NCBI RefSeq assembly: GCF_031081985.1
Contig: NZ_JARWSK010000010.1
Span: 62,001 to 126,000 of the forward strand
From: Komagataeibacter xylinus
Lineage (GTDB): Bacteria; Pseudomonadota; Alphaproteobacteria; Acetobacterales; Acetobacteraceae
DNA: 64,000 nt
Reading direction: 5' to 3'
A model generated the notes under the pieces. It was given only the letters and a program-made list of their open reading frames with translations. It was not told where the DNA came from and made no database searches. The position numbers and the translations under genes are program-made. Within the stretch, counting starts at the first letter, position 1. Each line of letters starts with the position of its first letter. Shown here in pieces: positions 56,241 through 62,934 of the stretch.

Positions 56241-57851
56241 GTGGAATTCATTAACCCCGATGTCGTCGACCTGTCGCGCTTCCAGTTCGCGCTGACGGCA
56301 TTGTACCATTTCATGTTCGTGCCGCTGACGCTGGGCCTGACATTCATGCTGGCGGCCATGGAGACGGTGTACGTCGTCACCGGCCGGCAGATCTACAAGG
56401 ACATGGCCCAGTTCTGGGGCAAGCTGTTCGGCATCAACTTCGCCATTGGTGTAGCGACCGGCATTACCATGGAATTCGAGTTCGGCACCAACTGGTCCAT
56501 GTATTCCCACTTTTTTGGGGATATGTTCGGCACGCCGCTGGCGATTGAAGGGCTGATGGCCTTCTTCATGGAGTCCACGTTCGTTGGCCTCATGTTCTTT
56601 GGCTGGGACCGGCTGAGCAAACAGGCGCATCTGGCCATTACCTATCTGGTGGCCCTTGGCTCCAACCTGTCGGCGTTGTGGATCCTGATCGCCAATGCCG
56701 GAATGAACATGCCCGAGGGCGCGCATTTCGATCCCGAAACCATGCGCATGCAGTTCGAAAGCTTTGTCAATCTGGTCTTCAACCCCGATGCACAGGCCAA
56801 GTTCGTGCATACTTCGGTTGCGGGCTATGTGTCGGCTGCCATGTTTGTCATGGGCATCAGCGCCTTTTACCTGCTGCGCGGGCAGCACCGGCAGTTCGCC
56901 GCGCGGTCGTTCCGCATGGCTGCGCTGTTCGGCATTATTTCCACCGTGGCGGTCATCACGCTGGGCGACGTGCTGGGGCGGCTGGATTATGAAAAGCAGC
57001 CCACCAAGATCGCCGCAATCGAAGGGCTGTGGCACACCAGCAACCCGCCGTTCGAGCCGTGGATCGTCGCCGCCCTGCCCGATGACGCAAGGCAGGAAAA
57101 TCACTACGAGATTGGCGTGCCGCTGGTCCTGACCCCGCTGATCACCCACACCTTTGACCAGCCCATTACCGGCATGCATGAACTCGAGGAGGCGGCAGGC
57201 CCGCGCATCCGTTCAGGGATCGATGCGGTGGCAGCACTCCGCCGCTATGGCGTGACCCACAGCAGCACGGACCTTGCGCAGTTCACCGCGCATGAGCAGG
57301 ACATGGGCTATGGCCTGCTTGCCACCCGCCATGCCCCCGGACAGGATGTAACGGCCATTCCGGCAGACCAGATCGATGATGTGGTCAGGGCGACTCAGCC
57401 CGACATCCTGCCCAACGTGTTCGTCACGTTCTGGTCTTTCCGGCTGATGGTGTTTTTGTCGCTGTGGTTCTTCGCGCTGTTTGCCATCTCGGCCTATCTC
57501 AGCCTCAAGCGCAGGCTTGAGCGCAGCCGCCTGCTGCTGAAGCTGTGCATGTGGTCGATCCCGCTGCCGATCCTGGCGACCGAGTTCGGCTGGATCACCG
57601 CGGAAGCAGGCCGCCAGCCATGGACCGTGTTTGGCTGGCTGCCCACCTTCCTCTCGGCCTCCAGCCACGGCGTGTCCTACATGGTGTTTTCGCTGATCGG
57701 CTTCGTGCTGCTCTACAGCGTGTTCATCGCGGCTGAACTCTACCTCATGTTCAAGTTTGCCCGCCTTGGCCCCGAGCATGACAGCATGGAGCCGCACGCA
57801 CCGGCTACGCCTCAGGCATCCGCCTTTGACATGCGTCCCATGGCGTCCTGA
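56241..57851 (+). CDS. cydA: Cytochrome bd ubiquinol oxidase subunit I
   Basis: A 536-residue quinol oxidase subunit. Heme ligands are visible: His in FALTALYHFMFVPLTLG (b595), His in KFVHTSVAGYVSAAMF (b558) and Met in TFWSFRLMVFL. The diagnostic GWITAEAGRQPWTVFGWLPT and the long Q-loop of the E. coli-type (L) subfamily are present. The start is the GTG at 56241 with AGGAGA seven bases upstream. Following cydDC directly, it forms a full cyd operon. Oxidises quinol and reduces O2 without proton pumping, with high affinity and sulfide tolerance in known examples. Confidence 0.96.
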   Translation: MEFINPDVVDLSRFQFALTALYHFMFVPLTLGLTFMLAAMETVYVVTGRQIYKDMAQFWGKLFGINFAIGVATGITMEFEFGTNWSMYSHFFGDMFGTPLAIEGLMAFFMESTFVGLMFFGWDRLSKQAHLAITYLVALGSNLSALWILIANAGMNMPEGAHFDPETMRMQFESFVNLVFNPDAQAKFVHTSVAGYVSAAMFVMGISAFYLLRGQHRQFAARSFRMAALFGIISTVAVITLGDVLGRLDYEKQPTKIAAIEGLWHTSNPPFEPWIVAALPDDARQENHYEIGVPLVLTPLITHTFDQPITGMHELEEAAGPRIRSGIDAVAALRRYGVTHSSTDLAQFTAHEQDMGYGLLATRHAPGQDVTAIPADQIDDVVRATQPDILPNVFVTFWSFRLMVFLSLWFFALFAISAYLSLKRRLERSRLLLKLCMWSIPLPILATEFGWITAEAGRQPWTVFGWLPTFLSASSHGVSYMVFSLIGFVLLYSVFIAAELYLMFKFARLGPEHDSMEPHAPATPQASAFDMRPMAS

Positions 57852-59005: not shown

Positions 59006-59018
59006 TTGCGAGGTCGTG

Positions 59019-59213
59019 ATGACAAAGCTTCTGCGCCTGGCCGGTCTGGCCATTGTTCTGGTCGTGTCCCTGCTGTTTGCCGTATTCGTGGGGGATCAGG
59101 GGCCGTGGTATTTTGCGTGGGTGATCGGCACCGTCATGATCATCCTGATTTCCGGGGCCGGGGCGATCATGCTTGATGCCCAGTCCGGTCTTTCAGCCGA
59201 TGGGGAGATCTGA
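59019..59213 (+). CDS. cydX: CydX-like small subunit with an extra N-terminal helix
   Basis: A 64-residue membrane protein. Residues about 30-55 (PWYFAWVIGTVMIILISGAG, AIMLDAQ) match E. coli CydX, which begins MWYFAWILGT and has 37 residues. Here that part is preceded by about 28 residues forming a second hydrophobic helix (LAGLAIVLVVSLLFAVFVGD). GAGG lies before the ATG at 59019; the only in-frame internal alternative, a GTG just before GDQGPWYF, has no ribosome site. CydX stabilises the heme site of cytochrome bd. The fusion of an extra helix is unusual. Confidence 0.82.
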   Translation: MTKLLRLAGLAIVLVVSLLFAVFVGDQGPWYFAWVIGTVMIILISGAGAIMLDAQSGLSADGEI

Positions 59214-59215
59214 CC

Positions 59216-59314
59216 ATGATGGGGGATCTTGAACGCATCATCTTCTTTATTCCGATGGTTTACATGGGGCTTTACCTGATTGCCTACCGCTGCGGTCGGC
59301 GCTGGTTCCCATGA
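59216..59314 (+). CDS. Predicted 32-residue membrane peptide in the cyd operon
   Basis: Begins MMGDLERIIFFIPMVYMGLY and ends CGRRWFP, a single membrane helix with a positively charged end. GGGGAGA lies ten bases before the ATG, which is two bases after the CydX-like stop, so it would be translated in the same transcript. Several bd oxidases have small one-helix subunits (CydX, CydH/Y, CydS), so it may be another. Too short for certain homology. Confidence 0.6.
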   Translation: MMGDLERIIFFIPMVYMGLYLIAYRCGRRWFP

Positions 59315-59390
59315 CAGGAATGGCGGTGAGTCTTTCTTCATCTCACGCCCGCCGCCATATCACGGCATCACCCTGCCGATGATGCGAAGC

Positions 59391-59424
59391 ACGCCACCCG
59401 GATCACCACGGGTGGCGTGTTTTG
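59391..59424 (+). terminator. Intrinsic terminator of the cyd operon
   Basis: Perfect 10-base stem ACGCCACCCG (59391-59400) with CGGGTGGCGT (59409-59418), 8-base loop, then GTTTTG. It follows the last small gene by about 75 bases and is the clearest terminator in the window. Confidence 0.88.
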
Positions 59425-59516: not shown

Positions 59517-60092
59517 ATGACCGGAAAACCAAAACGCACCAACAAACCCGAAGTCGTAAAGAACGACCTGCTCAACGCAGCAGGGCGGATACTGGTCACG
59601 AACGGCATTCAGGCGTTTACACTGGAACTGGTAGCCAGGGAGGCAAATGTCAGCAAAGGCGGCCTGCTGCACCATTTCCCGAACAAGAAAGCCCTGCTCG
59701 ATGGGCTTTTCATGCGTGAAATGGACCTGTTCAGGCGCGAGATGCTTGCCTCCATGCAAGATGATCCCGTTGCGTTTGGCAGGTCCGCGCGGGCGTATAT
59801 CGGGTTTAACCATGATGGAGCGAAAGAGACGCCGGTCATCATTCGTCATCTGCTTGCAGCCATGCTGATTGATCCGCAACTCAGTCAGGAATGGATCCAG
59901 CATTACTGGAGCGTGATCCGCTCCATCGGCCTGTTCGAGAACATGACACCAGCCCTTCTGCTCGCCTGCATGGCTGCTGATGGCCTTTCCCTGTGGGACA
60001 TTCTGGAGGCTGGCATTGTAGACCAGACGATGCGCGACAGCCTGCATGACCTGATGGTGCAGTTAACGCAGGCCCCTGATAAAGCTGGCTGA
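59517..60092 (+). CDS. TetR/AcrR family repressor of an RND system
   Basis: A 191-residue repressor. The helix-turn-helix includes LLNAAGRILVTNGIQAFTLE with VAREANVSKGGLLHHFPNKK, then a TetR_C-type domain. The ATG at 59517 follows the palindrome at 59489-59506. It is transcribed in the same direction as the small membrane gene and the RND adaptor/permease genes, and likely controls them in response to an exported compound. Confidence 0.92.
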   Translation: MTGKPKRTNKPEVVKNDLLNAAGRILVTNGIQAFTLELVAREANVSKGGLLHHFPNKKALLDGLFMREMDLFRREMLASMQDDPVAFGRSARAYIGFNHDGAKETPVIIRHLLAAMLIDPQLSQEWIQHYWSVIRSIGLFENMTPALLLACMAADGLSLWDILEAGIVDQTMRDSLHDLMVQLTQAPDKAG

Positions 60093-60115
60093 AATGCAGG
60101 GGGCTTTCTCTTTTT
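60071..60115 (+). terminator. Possible intrinsic terminator at the end of the TetR gene
   Basis: GCCCCTG (60072-60078) pairs with CAGGGGG (60097-60103), followed by GCTTTCTCTTTTTC. The first arm lies inside the last TetR codons. It could reduce read-through into the efflux genes; strength is modest. Confidence 0.45.
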
Positions 60116-60138
60116 CAGGGACGGTTGTTTCAGGTGCC

Positions 60139-60333
60139 ATGGCAACCGCGGCGCACAAACAGGTTCTGGGTTTTACCAGAATGCCCCCAATGGCCGTCAT
60201 GACAGCAGGCTGTATCTCGTCCTTCATCTTTTTTTCTGTCTGGTTCTACTTCCGGAACCGGTTTGATGGGCAACAGGCCACCATGATTATTCTTGTCCTG
60301 TTGGGAATTTCGGTTATCGCGGCCCTGCCGTAA
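60139..60333 (+). CDS. Small membrane protein of unknown function
   Basis: About 64 residues with two predicted helices (MAVMTAGCISSFIFFSVWFY, and ATMIILVLLGISVIAAL) around a short basic loop FRNRFDGQQ. The start at 60139 has CAGGTG nearby; a longer start at 60094 is possible. It lies between the TetR and adaptor genes. No family was recognised. Confidence 0.5.
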   Translation: MATAAHKQVLGFTRMPPMAVMTAGCISSFIFFSVWFYFRNRFDGQQATMIILVLLGISVIAALP

Positions 60334-60364
60334 AGAAAAAAGCCTGTATTTTTCGGAAATCAAC

Positions 60365-61459
60365 ATGTCCTGTCGAATGCGCACAGACATCCTGACAAGG
60401 GTGCTGCCCCTGCTTGCGGCATCATGCCTTTTAGGGTGCAAGCCGGTATCCTCCCCGGTCAAACACGCGGCCCTTCCGGCCGTGCAGGCCCTCAGGGTGC
60501 ATGGCGCCTCACCACAGAAGGCTGTCTTCATCGGGTGGTACGGGGCCGAAAGAAGTATTCCTCTTGCCCCAACGCAGGCCGGGCGCCTGACATCAGTATC
60601 GGTTGCCAGCGGTCAATATGTTCATCAGGGCGATGTTCTGGCTTCATTTGAAGACAGGCTGCTGCTGGAGATGGAAGCCCAGGCACAGGGCGAGGTTGAT
60701 GCCGCCCGCGCTGAAATGAATCAGGCTGCGGCAACATATAAAAGAAGCCGGGGACTGGACACCATAGGGGGGCTGTCCGCTGGAGCAGTCGAAGAACGTG
60801 CCAATTCGTGGCATCTGGCACAGGGAAAATACAGATCAGCCCTTGCCGCCCTGACGCAGGCCCGGATTCAGGTGGCTGAAAGCAGGGTCCGGGTGCCTGA
60901 AGATGGCTGGATCACGAGCGTCACGGGGGTTCCGGGCAGCCTTGTCGGCGCCGGGAGCGAAATCATACGGTTGTCCGCAGGAGCGCCTGAAGTCCATTTC
61001 AAGGTTCCAGCACCCTCATCCTGGAGTGTTGGTGACAGGGCGGAGGTCGGCCTGCCTGACGGTCAGGATGGCCAGTCCGTTCAGGCTGTCATCAGGGAAA
61101 TTGGTGCGGTTGACGTAACCAGCCAGATGCAGGAGGTGAAGCTCAGGCTTGACCATCCGCTTCCCGTGGCCATCAACAGCCTTGTTACGGTTATCCTTGC
61201 CGCGCATGACGTATCCCATGCCGTGCGCGTGCCGCTTACTGCCGTGGATTCAGCAGACCAGACGCATGCCCATCTATGGGGGCTGACGGATGGGCAGGCG
61301 CCCCATCTTGTGCTGCGGCGCGTCCGTATTGTCGGGCTGAGAGGGGCAGATGCGCTGGTTGAAGGCCTGACGGACGGTGAATGGATTGTCACCAGTACTG
61401 ATGGTTCGTTCCAGCAGGGACAGGCTGTTCTTGTCGCCGGGCAGGCAGGTGAACGCTGA
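60365..61459 (+). CDS. RND efflux periplasmic adaptor (lipoprotein)
   Basis: A 364-residue HlyD/AcrA-like adaptor. The signal ends in a lipobox, LLAASCLLGCKPVSS, so Cys should be lipidated. The barrel-sandwich half-motifs are LTSVSVASGQYVHQGDVLAS and VRVPEDGWITSVTGVPGSLV flanking an alpha-hairpin of about 80 residues. It ends in an ATG overlap with the permease gene. Starts at 60365 or 60377 are both possible. Confidence 0.9.
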   Translation: MSCRMRTDILTRVLPLLAASCLLGCKPVSSPVKHAALPAVQALRVHGASPQKAVFIGWYGAERSIPLAPTQAGRLTSVSVASGQYVHQGDVLASFEDRLLLEMEAQAQGEVDAARAEMNQAAATYKRSRGLDTIGGLSAGAVEERANSWHLAQGKYRSALAALTQARIQVAESRVRVPEDGWITSVTGVPGSLVGAGSEIIRLSAGAPEVHFKVPAPSSWSVGDRAEVGLPDGQDGQSVQAVIREIGAVDVTSQMQEVKLRLDHPLPVAINSLVTVILAAHDVSHAVRVPLTAVDSADQTHAHLWGLTDGQAPHLVLRRVRIVGLRGADALVEGLTDGEWIVTSTDGSFQQGQAVLVAGQAGER

Positions 61460-62934
61460 TGATGGATCGTTTCAACGTCTCACGCTGGGCTGTTGGCCAT
61501 CCGGCACTTGTCAGCTTCATGATGGCCTGCCTTTTCCTCGCCGGTGGATACGGTTTTTTCCACCTTGGCCGGGCGGAAGACCCCGCTTTCACGCTCAAGA
61601 ACATGATTGTTTCCGCCCAATGGCCGGGCGCAGGCGCCCAGCAGATGCAAAGGCAGGTTGCCGAACCGCTTGAACAGGGCCTGCGTGATATCGAAGCCAT
61701 AGATGTTCTAAGCACATATTGCATTCCGGCAGCCTGCGTGACGCAGATATTCCTGCGCGATGATGAAAGAAAGGAACGCGTTCCGGTTATCTGGCAGAAG
61801 GTCCGCAACCGGCTGTCCGACCTTTCTCCCGGCCTGCCGTCTGGTGTGGCGCTCGCCGCCAATGATGATTATGCCGATGTCTATGGCTATGTGTTTACCC
61901 TGACCGGGGGAGAAAATGCAGACCTCATCAGGACATCCGAATATCTGAAGAAGATTTTCCAGGCGGTTCACGGCGTGGGGAAGGTGCAGATCAGCGGCGA
62001 GATTCCTCAGCAGGTCAATGTCGATCTTGATCCGCAACAGGCTGCGGCAAGGGGGATCAGTCCCGATCAGGTGGCAAGGTCGCTTCAGGGCCGATCGGCC
62101 CTGGCTTCTGGCGGTTCGGTGGATTTTACAACGGTTGTTCCCCTGAATGTGTCCGGAGTCCTCGACGGTGTGCAGTCCGTTGAGGAGACGCCACTCGCAG
62201 GCCATTCCGGCACCATGCGTGTCAGGGATATTGCCCAGGTGAGCCGTGACTATGCAGACCCGGCACCTTCGCTGATCCGTTACGGGGGCAGGCCGGCCGT
62301 TGTCATTGCTGTCGCAATGGCTGATGGCGCGGACGGGCTTGCACTGGGCAGGGCGCTTGAGAAGGCGGCGGCTACAGCCGTGCTGCCCGCAGGCATGACG
62401 CTGACGCAGGTGGAAGACCAGAGCCGGGTCATCGGGGAGGCCGTGAATACATTCCTGATCAAGTTCGTCGTGGCGCTGAGTGTTGTGCTTCTGGTGGCTT
62501 TTGTCAGCCTGGGCCTGAAAGCCGGGATTATCGTGGCCTGCTCCGTGCCGCTCACGCTTGCCGGGGTCAGCCTGTACATGGGCATGGAGCATATCGGGCT
62601 GGACCGTATCTCGCTTGGTGCCCTCATCCTTTCCCTCGGGCTGCTGGTGGATGATGCCATCATCAGTATCGAAGCCATGGTCGTGCAGCTTGAACAGGGG
62701 CGCAGCCGCGAAGAGGCTGCCTCTTTCGCGTGGAGCCACACTGCGTTCCCGATGCTGACGGGCACGGTGCTGACGGTTGTCAGCTTCCTGCCGGTTGGCC
62801 TGGCGCAGTCGACAACGGGGGAATACGCTGGTGAAATTTTCTGGGTCAGTGCCGCAGCGCTGCTGTTCAGTTGGGTTGTGGCGGTCGTTTTCATCCCGTT
62901 TCTGGGGGTTCATCTCCTGCCTGAAGCCCGGTAG
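61459..62934 (+). CDS. RND efflux permease, N-terminal half (ends in TAG)
   Basis: The first 491 residues of an AcrB/HAE1-like permease: cytoplasmic lead, TM1 (PALVSFMMACLFLAGGYGFF), the first periplasmic porter domain (AEDPAFTLKNMIVSAQWPGA), then TM2-6 including the family motif GALILSLGLLVDDAIISIEA with the proton-relay acidic pair. It ends at TAG 62932-62934, right after HLLPEAR and the sixth helix. Translation in the same frame continues into TM7 and beyond. Intact members are about 1,020-1,050 residues. Confidence 0.85.
   Translation: MMDRFNVSRWAVGHPALVSFMMACLFLAGGYGFFHLGRAEDPAFTLKNMIVSAQWPGAGAQQMQRQVAEPLEQGLRDIEAIDVLSTYCIPAACVTQIFLRDDERKERVPVIWQKVRNRLSDLSPGLPSGVALAANDDYADVYGYVFTLTGGENADLIRTSEYLKKIFQAVHGVGKVQISGEIPQQVNVDLDPQQAAARGISPDQVARSLQGRSALASGGSVDFTTVVPLNVSGVLDGVQSVEETPLAGHSGTMRVRDIAQVSRDYADPAPSLIRYGGRPAVVIAVAMADGADGLALGRALEKAAATAVLPAGMTLTQVEDQSRVIGEAVNTFLIKFVVALSVVLLVAFVSLGLKAGIIVACSVPLTLAGVSLYMGMEHIGLDRISLGALILSLGLLVDDAIISIEAMVVQLEQGRSREEAASFAWSHTAFPMLTGTVLTVVSFLPVGLAQSTTGEYAGEIFWVSAAALLFSWVVAVVFIPFLGVHLLPEAR

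Follow-up and report, generated by a model that had tools for sequence, protein, structure and literature searches.

The cyd operon in a 64,000-nucleotide stretch of Komagataeibacter xylinus DNA (contig NZ_JARWSK010000010.1, positions 62,001 to 126,000 of the forward strand; hereafter the window, numbered from its first letter) raises the question of which small proteins its cytochrome bd oxidase carries. On the + strand, cydD, cydC, cydA, cydB and a cydX encoding two hydrophobic helices are followed by a 32-residue open reading frame (ORF), here provisionally named CydW (W), and then by a terminator hairpin (Table 1). Judged from sequence, the gene at 59019-59213 is a genuine CydX to which a further helix has been added at the N-terminus, and W is a conserved gene under purifying selection. 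We consider W likely to be a further stoichiometric subunit of the bd oxidase. On balance, the data favor a branch of bd oxidases with a rebuilt small-subunit layer and quinol site, in which gain of the helix and replacements in CydA would have been followed later by gain of W.

The first-pass annotation had described the gene after cydB as resembling the start of E. coli CydX, preceded by an extra hydrophobic helix, and our comparisons bear this out. The protein reads MTKLLRLAGLAIVLVVSLLFAVFVGDQG followed by PWYFAWVIGT..., with residue 30 onward matching the E. coli CydX start; an N-terminal hydrophobic stretch thus leads through a short GDQGP turn into a second one. A profile of the second half scored E. 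coli CydX at 23.1 bits, a value reached by none of 2000 shuffles, and the motif YxxWxxGx15[ED] (Allen et al. 2014) is present as Y31, W34, G37 and D53, as it is in all 26 CydX rows aligned. Like E. coli bd-I CydX (PF08173, TIGR02106), the gene lies directly behind cydB and shares the WYFAW start and this motif; E. coli Thr10 corresponds to T38 here, kept in 26/26 rows, and the accompanying CydA aligns along the E. coli Q-loop. E. coli CydX differs in being without the extra N-terminal helix and in having Met1 of the Met1-Trp2 dimer motif, where Pro precedes Trp in all 26 two-helix rows. Long open frames around X could suggest natural fusions with CydB; in the one-helix loci of the other CydA branch (see below) that were read past cydB, cydX starts near or past the cydB stop in a different frame. 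AlphaFold2 predicted helices at residues 2-26 and 29-60 (mean predicted local distance difference test score, pLDDT, 86), two rather than the single transmembrane helix by which a CydX would be recognized. The protein also scored under the curated cut-offs of both CydX families (PF08173, 17.2 of 26.2 bits; TIGR02106, 17.5 of 31.6 bits); TIGR02106 was the sole family matching all 26 rows at an expect value (E) up to 10, and the Pfam CydX model is too stringent according to Allen et al. 2014 (PMC4325964).

Translation starting internally at the CydX-like part is an unlikely explanation, because both conservation and selection are evident in helix 1. Among the 26 rows, A21, V22, G25 and D26, adjoining the join, are invariant, and nonsynonymous divergence (dN) was below synonymous divergence (dS) in 864 of 879 pairs for helix 1 (pairwise NG86, restricted to pairs with dS 0.15-1.2), with a median dN/dS of 0.42 against 0.38 for helix 2. 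The in-frame GTG in the join region encodes a residue that is Ala in 13/26 rows, so this codon is not a shared start. A further in-frame GTG, at 59016, is an alternative start for the whole gene. The two-helix form was known before. A 'grey clade' of CydX whose N-terminal extension forms a second hydrophobic helix, with hosts among the Alpha-, Beta- and Gammaproteobacteria, was described by Allen et al. 2014 (PMC4325964); their figure spans two clades and has Acetobacter, Acidiphilium and Acidithiobacillus among its listed species, and none of the seven CydX homologues they assayed is described as two-helix in the text available. Degli Esposti et al. 2015 (PMC5322542) likewise reported that the cydX product of acetic acid bacteria spans the membrane twice. 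The present protein is of the same kind and in the same operon place as theirs. The earlier description of the small subunits as unusual is therefore partly wrong, since the two-helix CydX has been in print since 2014; the second small gene is real. In the available portions of these two papers there is no mention of a 32-residue ORF, of paired changes in CydA or of a gain in steps.

That second gene had been proposed as a frame two nucleotides on, with its own ribosome site, ahead of the terminator, and each of these elements was found: the ATG at 59216 lies 2 nt past the cydX stop (59213), a GGGAG precedes it, and the hairpin at 59386-59423, matched by none of 200 shuffles, begins 71 nt past the W stop. 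The 32-residue product is MMGDLERIIFFIPMVYMGLYLIAYRCGRRWFP, and the consensus is MxGDLExxIFFIPFxYLxxYxxAYLxTRKxFP, with M1, E6, P13 and Y16 invariant in an alignment of 26 W rows. AlphaFold2 predicted a single helix at residues 4-30 (pLDDT 92). dN was below dS in 521/531 pairs with dS in the range given above (median dN/dS 0.37), and divergence at the three codon positions was 0.38, 0.25 and 0.61. Comparison with the DNA downstream, for which a random 35% of pairs were aligned two by two, separated W from its surroundings. Where cydX was less than 75% identical, the 99 nt past the W stop were 0.41-0.44 alike, against 0.44 for random sequence, and W identity was 0.54-0.62, against 0.52-0.69 for X; in closer pairs the downstream DNA was still partly alike (0.54 and 0.73, against 0.76 and 0.90 for W). 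A Shine-Dalgarno-like tetramer was found upstream of W in 98/98 distinct loci, against 56% in shuffles. With the start taken as that nearest to 32 residues, a rule that itself narrows the lengths, W measured 29-33 aa in 95/98 distinct loci, and the cydX-W spacing ranged from -4 to +25 nt, +2 being commonest (34/104). Rows L073 and L181 were dropped for having no start by this rule and L178 and L179 because the regular expression missed them; W was still seen in L073 and G070 and found by profile in G029 and G116. Two departures in length were observed. In a close relative (L002, 1421-1495, - strand) an in-frame TAA, either a natural truncation or a sequencing error, cuts W to 25 aa, and in two Gluconacetobacter (L049, L050) the helix is kept and the C-terminus is swapped for a longer tail, giving 38 aa. 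Literature searches found no description of W as a gene; the supplementary tables of PMC13189123 and PMC4325964 might list such sequences.

W had no significant match in Pfam, NCBIfam or the PDB. Lone rows of the 26 matched MerF (E 0.0033), PGF-CTERM (E 0.019) and two weaker families, none of them with a second row, and TIGR03061 was matched by two rows (best E 0.19). The likeness of W to CydS, to CydH or to either CydX helix did not stand clearly above that of shuffles. CydH/CydY (YnhF) of E. coli bd-I is a one-helix peptide of 29 aa, close to W in size; however, 183/500 shuffles scored as well, NF033411 was absent from the NCBIfam matches of the W alignment (26 rows, E up to 10), and ynhF sits away from the E. 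coli cyd operon (PMC8951039), whereas W adjoins cydX. CydS of Geobacillus thermodenitrificans (5doq) has 33 residues and, like W, a Pro early in its helix. It scored best against the W profile among known small subunits, although not significantly (2.3 bits, 25/500 shuffles as good), and a W profile search of the PDB did not retrieve it (5doq chain C). CydS moreover occupies the CydX place (PMC8951039), which the two-helix CydX should already hold. The CydY (epsilon/delta) and CydZ (DUF2474) proteins of Allen et al. 2014 are small, one-helix and encoded past cydB, as is W, but they belong to operons without cydX and have a Trp at the helix start (PMC4325964); the W alignments contain no conserved Trp, and cydX precedes W in every counted locus.

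The distribution of W followed that of the two-helix CydX. In the family sample of 299 genomes, CydA at E up to 1e-100 was at least 65% identical to that of the window in 45 genomes and 49-55% identical in 39, with none between the two groups. Two-helix CydX (E up to 1.6e-7) was present in 44/45 genomes of the window branch and 0/39 of the other, W (E up to 5.1e-5) again in these 44/45 and in 0/39, and the two genes adjoin in all 44. The other branch has a one-helix CydX past cydB in 36/36 readable loci of its 39 (L137, L172 and L174 being unreadable past cydB). Weaker matches, of X in 21/299 genomes (E 3.2e-4 to 0.09) and of W in 3 (E 0.0096 to 0.035), were treated as chance, and the W profile has only 32 positions, so that far-diverged copies may escape it. 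W stood behind two-helix cydX in 30/30 family loci read (L001-L030, the truncated copy in L002 included) and in 80/80 named loci (L046-L125) from acetic acid bacteria and relatives and from Acidithiobacillus. The latter are the best 80 of 130, found via a two-helix CydX search, and test for W given two-helix CydX, not the reverse; the two sets overlap in species. Lack of conservation had been named as grounds for refuting the frame, and the frame is conserved. Acidithiobacillus and Igneacidithiobacillus, which lie outside the family sample, also carry W. Among 299 genomes sampled across the phylum, clear matches were confined to G000 and one family member, and four weak matches in other families (L128-L131), without cyd genes among the listed frames, were judged chance.

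Broken operons were also seen. In G183, the one window-branch miss, cydB is cut short and runs into other sequence and a stop, and G196 contains an extra W match without a start or cydX, an apparent relic (loci L176 and L177). The cyd operon is patchy even inside the own genus, where, at E up to 1e-100, neither CydA branch is present in 5 of the 7 genomes listed (G060, G135, G184, G222, G281).

A CydB tree of 84 rows, covering part of the loci and excluding L101 as too short, separated one-helix loci, two-helix loci without W and two-helix loci with W, and required no more than the minimum of 2 changes. The rows with both features form one clade (Shimodaira-Hasegawa-like approximate likelihood ratio test, SH-aLRT, 99). 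On this one tree, the extra helix appears to have been gained first and W later, once each. The two-helix and W module is common to Acetobacteraceae/Acidocellaceae and Acidithiobacillaceae, and this spread is in line with the horizontal transfer that Allen et al. 2014 (PMC4325964) proposed for the two-helix clade.

The same branch carries replacements at the quinol site. The 2026 structures of E. coli bd-I (PMC13189123) assign quinol oxidation to the CydA residues Tyr243 and Arg298, and they place another ubiquinone site at CydA Ser233 with CydX Thr10; Y243A, R298A and S233A each abolish E. coli activity. In the window CydA, E. coli S233/Y243/R298 are A237/R247/H303, and the E. coli heme ligands are retained. 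Among 87 distinct CydA of the two-helix branch (85 with W and 2 without), the Arg298 position is His in 87/87 and the Ser233 position is Ala, Gly or Cys in 87/87. The Tyr243 position varies more: 67 sequences carry Arg, 9 Tyr, 7 Phe, 3 Val and 1 Glu, and Arg243 was seen only outside the Acidithiobacillus rows. The one-helix comparison set, 38 CydA from one family plus that of E. coli, kept Arg298 in 39/39, Ser233 in 38/39 and Tyr243 in 38/39. Heme ligands, Asp239, Lys252 and Glu257 are constant in all rows, bar one unknown letter at 445. An alignment-free motif search gave His in 83/87 and Arg in 35/39 at position 298, the 8 misses being His and Arg by eye, and missed 2/87 at position 243. Because His298 and the loss of Ser233 are present also in both two-helix loci without W, these changes track the helix and not W. 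In CydB, the position of E. coli Trp12, which is reported to stack on a quinone, is Ala in 58/86 W-carrying rows (Ala12 in the window) and Trp in 37/37 one-helix rows. We found no description in literature searches of a CydA quinol-site replacement paired with two-helix CydX, although supplementary lists might include such sequences.

How the added helices would be placed can be considered from known structures. The CydX N-terminus is on the periplasmic side (PMC8951039) with Trp2 at the Q-loop (PMC13189123), the reverse of the orientation drawn in earlier papers (PMC5322542, PMC4325964). With a periplasmic N-terminus of the CydX part, the added helix must run from cytoplasm to periplasm, and its tether, of some five residues, should keep it against the exposed face of CydX, where the partner's CydX lies in E. 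coli. The mean charges of CydX, +1.26 at the N-terminus and -1.03 in the loop, agree with this direction. Those of W (N end -1.61, C end +2.63) point to a topology with the N-terminus outside and the C-terminus inside. E. coli bd-I dimerizes through CydX, by way of Met1-Trp2 and a leucine zipper; in the dimer, Asp239 of the Q-loop is anchored by Trp2, and turnover is twice as high (PMC13189123). We therefore propose, conditionally, that CydX gained an N-terminal helix and its C-terminal helix kept the CydX place against CydA. Helix 1 would pass from cytoplasm to periplasm and connect through the short loop to the CydX helix, most likely packing on the outer face of CydX, the dimerization face in E. 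coli bd-I. There it may stand in for the partner's CydX or build another dimer, and it would hold the Trp and the Q-loop. In the same branch CydA would have exchanged Arg298 for His and replaced Ser233, and the 32-residue single-helix W, N-terminus out and C-terminus in, would have been gained later and retained. A more far-reaching version, which we regard as doubtful, is a distinct cytochrome bd subtype in which the tethered helix mimics the partner protomer, so that a monomer would have its Q-loop locked, quinol is oxidized with His in place of Arg298 and without Ser233, and W is a newly evolved fourth subunit, the whole being a two-step module of Acetobacteraceae and Acidithiobacillus.

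Other placements and roles were weighed against this proposal. The first-pass annotation had put the extra helix in the CydH/Y site near CydA, and filling of that cleft by helix 1, in the job of CydH, would agree with the absence of any YnhF/CydH match over the cut-off in the own genome (two weak matches lie below it), with a helix 1 score of 6.8 bits against CydH (36/2000 shuffles as good) and with the contact that both CydX and CydH make with CydA transmembrane helix (TM) 1. Furthermore, CydA 466-497, taken as TM9 by our own estimate, holds 8/46 branch-specific positions. The likeness to CydH is, however, not significant: the register is shifted, and the score is weak given that six comparisons were made. 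TM9 faces CydB too (PMC8585947). CydH is reported on the side of CydA opposite CydX. Reported contacts are TM1 and TM4-7, or TM1, 5 and 6, for CydX, and TM1 and TM9, or TM8 in bd-II, for CydH (PMC8951039, PMC8585947, PMC13189123). Because a five-residue turn ties helix 1 to CydX and CydH is reported on the opposite side, we regard this placement as very improbable, and W appears to be the better candidate for a fourth subunit. W itself, rather than the extra helix, could fill a CydH-like cleft and block access to heme b595. With no CydH over the cut-off in the own genome the cleft may be free, W is about the size of CydH, and two CydA changes confined to loci with two-helix CydX and W fall in the presumed TM9 (494 to Phe, 497 to Ala). 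Yet these are only 2 of 14 such positions, W has no sequence likeness to CydH by the shuffles above, and E. coli bd-II functions without CydH (PMC8585947); this location is doubtful. Placing either W or helix 1 by way of branch-specific CydA and CydB positions failed, the changes being too scattered.

It is unlikely that W is an assembly or heme-insertion factor instead of a subunit of the finished enzyme. Such a factor would give the same operon position and co-occurrence, and small membrane proteins that aid respiratory enzymes are known (PMC6134056), but solved structures show the comparable one-pass peptides CydX, AppX, CydS and CydH as subunits (PMC8951039), and the W helix contains I9, P13 and Y16, invariant in a further W alignment. 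It is scarcely credible that the frame of 32 residues is no gene and owes its persistence to chance or to a constraint on the DNA: its lack of a database match and the in-frame stop in L002 would fit, whereas the excess of dS over dN, the codon-position pattern, the presence in every named locus and the random downstream DNA where X identity is below 75% argue against it. We thus retain a branch with a two-helix CydX, an altered quinol site and a W that is presumably translated and part of the complex. Several observations weigh against parts of this interpretation. The AlphaFold2 model of the two-helix CydX reached a predicted template modelling score of only 0.48, and the CydX C-terminus, with a mean charge of -1.84, does not itself favor a cytoplasmic end. 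TM1 is common to both sites, so CydX and CydH lie closer than 'opposite side' implies. Loci L033 and L193, from other families, lack W although their CydX has two helices, so this form does not require W. The CydB tree is quick and midpoint-rooted, three one-helix rows (L195, L035, L042) were flagged as long branches, and the order of the two W-less loci has a support of just 26. Finally, branch-specific positions number 46 in CydA and 42 in CydB and are scattered, and the link between quinol site and helix, which has one shared branch as its basis, may be coincidence.

Table 1 Coordinates of the cyd operon features in the window.
Feature	Position	Strand	Evidence
cydD, ABC exporter subunit, 565 aa	52791..54488	+	TIGR02857 CydD 529 bits, above cut-off
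cydC, ABC exporter subunit, 563 aa	54485..56176	+	TIGR02868 CydC 430 bits, above cut-off
cydA, 536 aa, GTG start	56241..57851	+	PF01654 535 bits; alignment with E. coli CydA
cydB, 379 aa	57866..59005	+	TIGR00203 361 bits
GAGG ribosome-binding site for cydX	59010..59013	+	Sequence, 5 nt to ATG 59019
Two-helix CydX, 64 aa	59019..59213	+	Extra helix residues 2-26; CydX helix from 29
GGGAG ribosome-binding site for 32-residue ORF	59203..59207	+	Sequence, 8 nt to ATG 59216
One-helix membrane peptide, 32 residues, provisionally CydW (W)	59216..59314	+	ORF and conservation
Intrinsic terminator hairpin, end of operon	59386..59423	+	-29.2 kcal/mol, z -6.6

The nearest named relatives of the window are Komagataeibacter, its CydB being 97% identical to that of Komagataeibacter sp. 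FXV3. Beyond the cyd terminator lie a TetR-type regulator (Pfam) at 59517-60092, a hydrophobic 79-residue ORF at 60094-60333, between the TetR gene and the pump-like ORFs, and, at 60293-62934, ORFs resembling an efflux adaptor and an incomplete stretch of an RND pump (labels by eye). Elsewhere in the own genome (L175, contig C1 104800-109000) there is a second bd oxidase, of the CIO type, behind which stands a 49-residue DUF2474/CydZ-like ORF (both labels by eye), so that both small-subunit systems occur in one genome.

The small subunits of cytochrome bd, a drug target, matter for assembly and heme access and, according to the newest E. coli structures, for dimerization and quinol turnover. 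A natural branch with a changed small-subunit layer and without residues that are essential in E. coli offers a direct test of the mechanism: its dimerization should be altered or absent, and its quinol binding altered as well. W is a widespread gene missing from the libraries searched, and its hosts are vinegar, cellulose and bioleaching bacteria.
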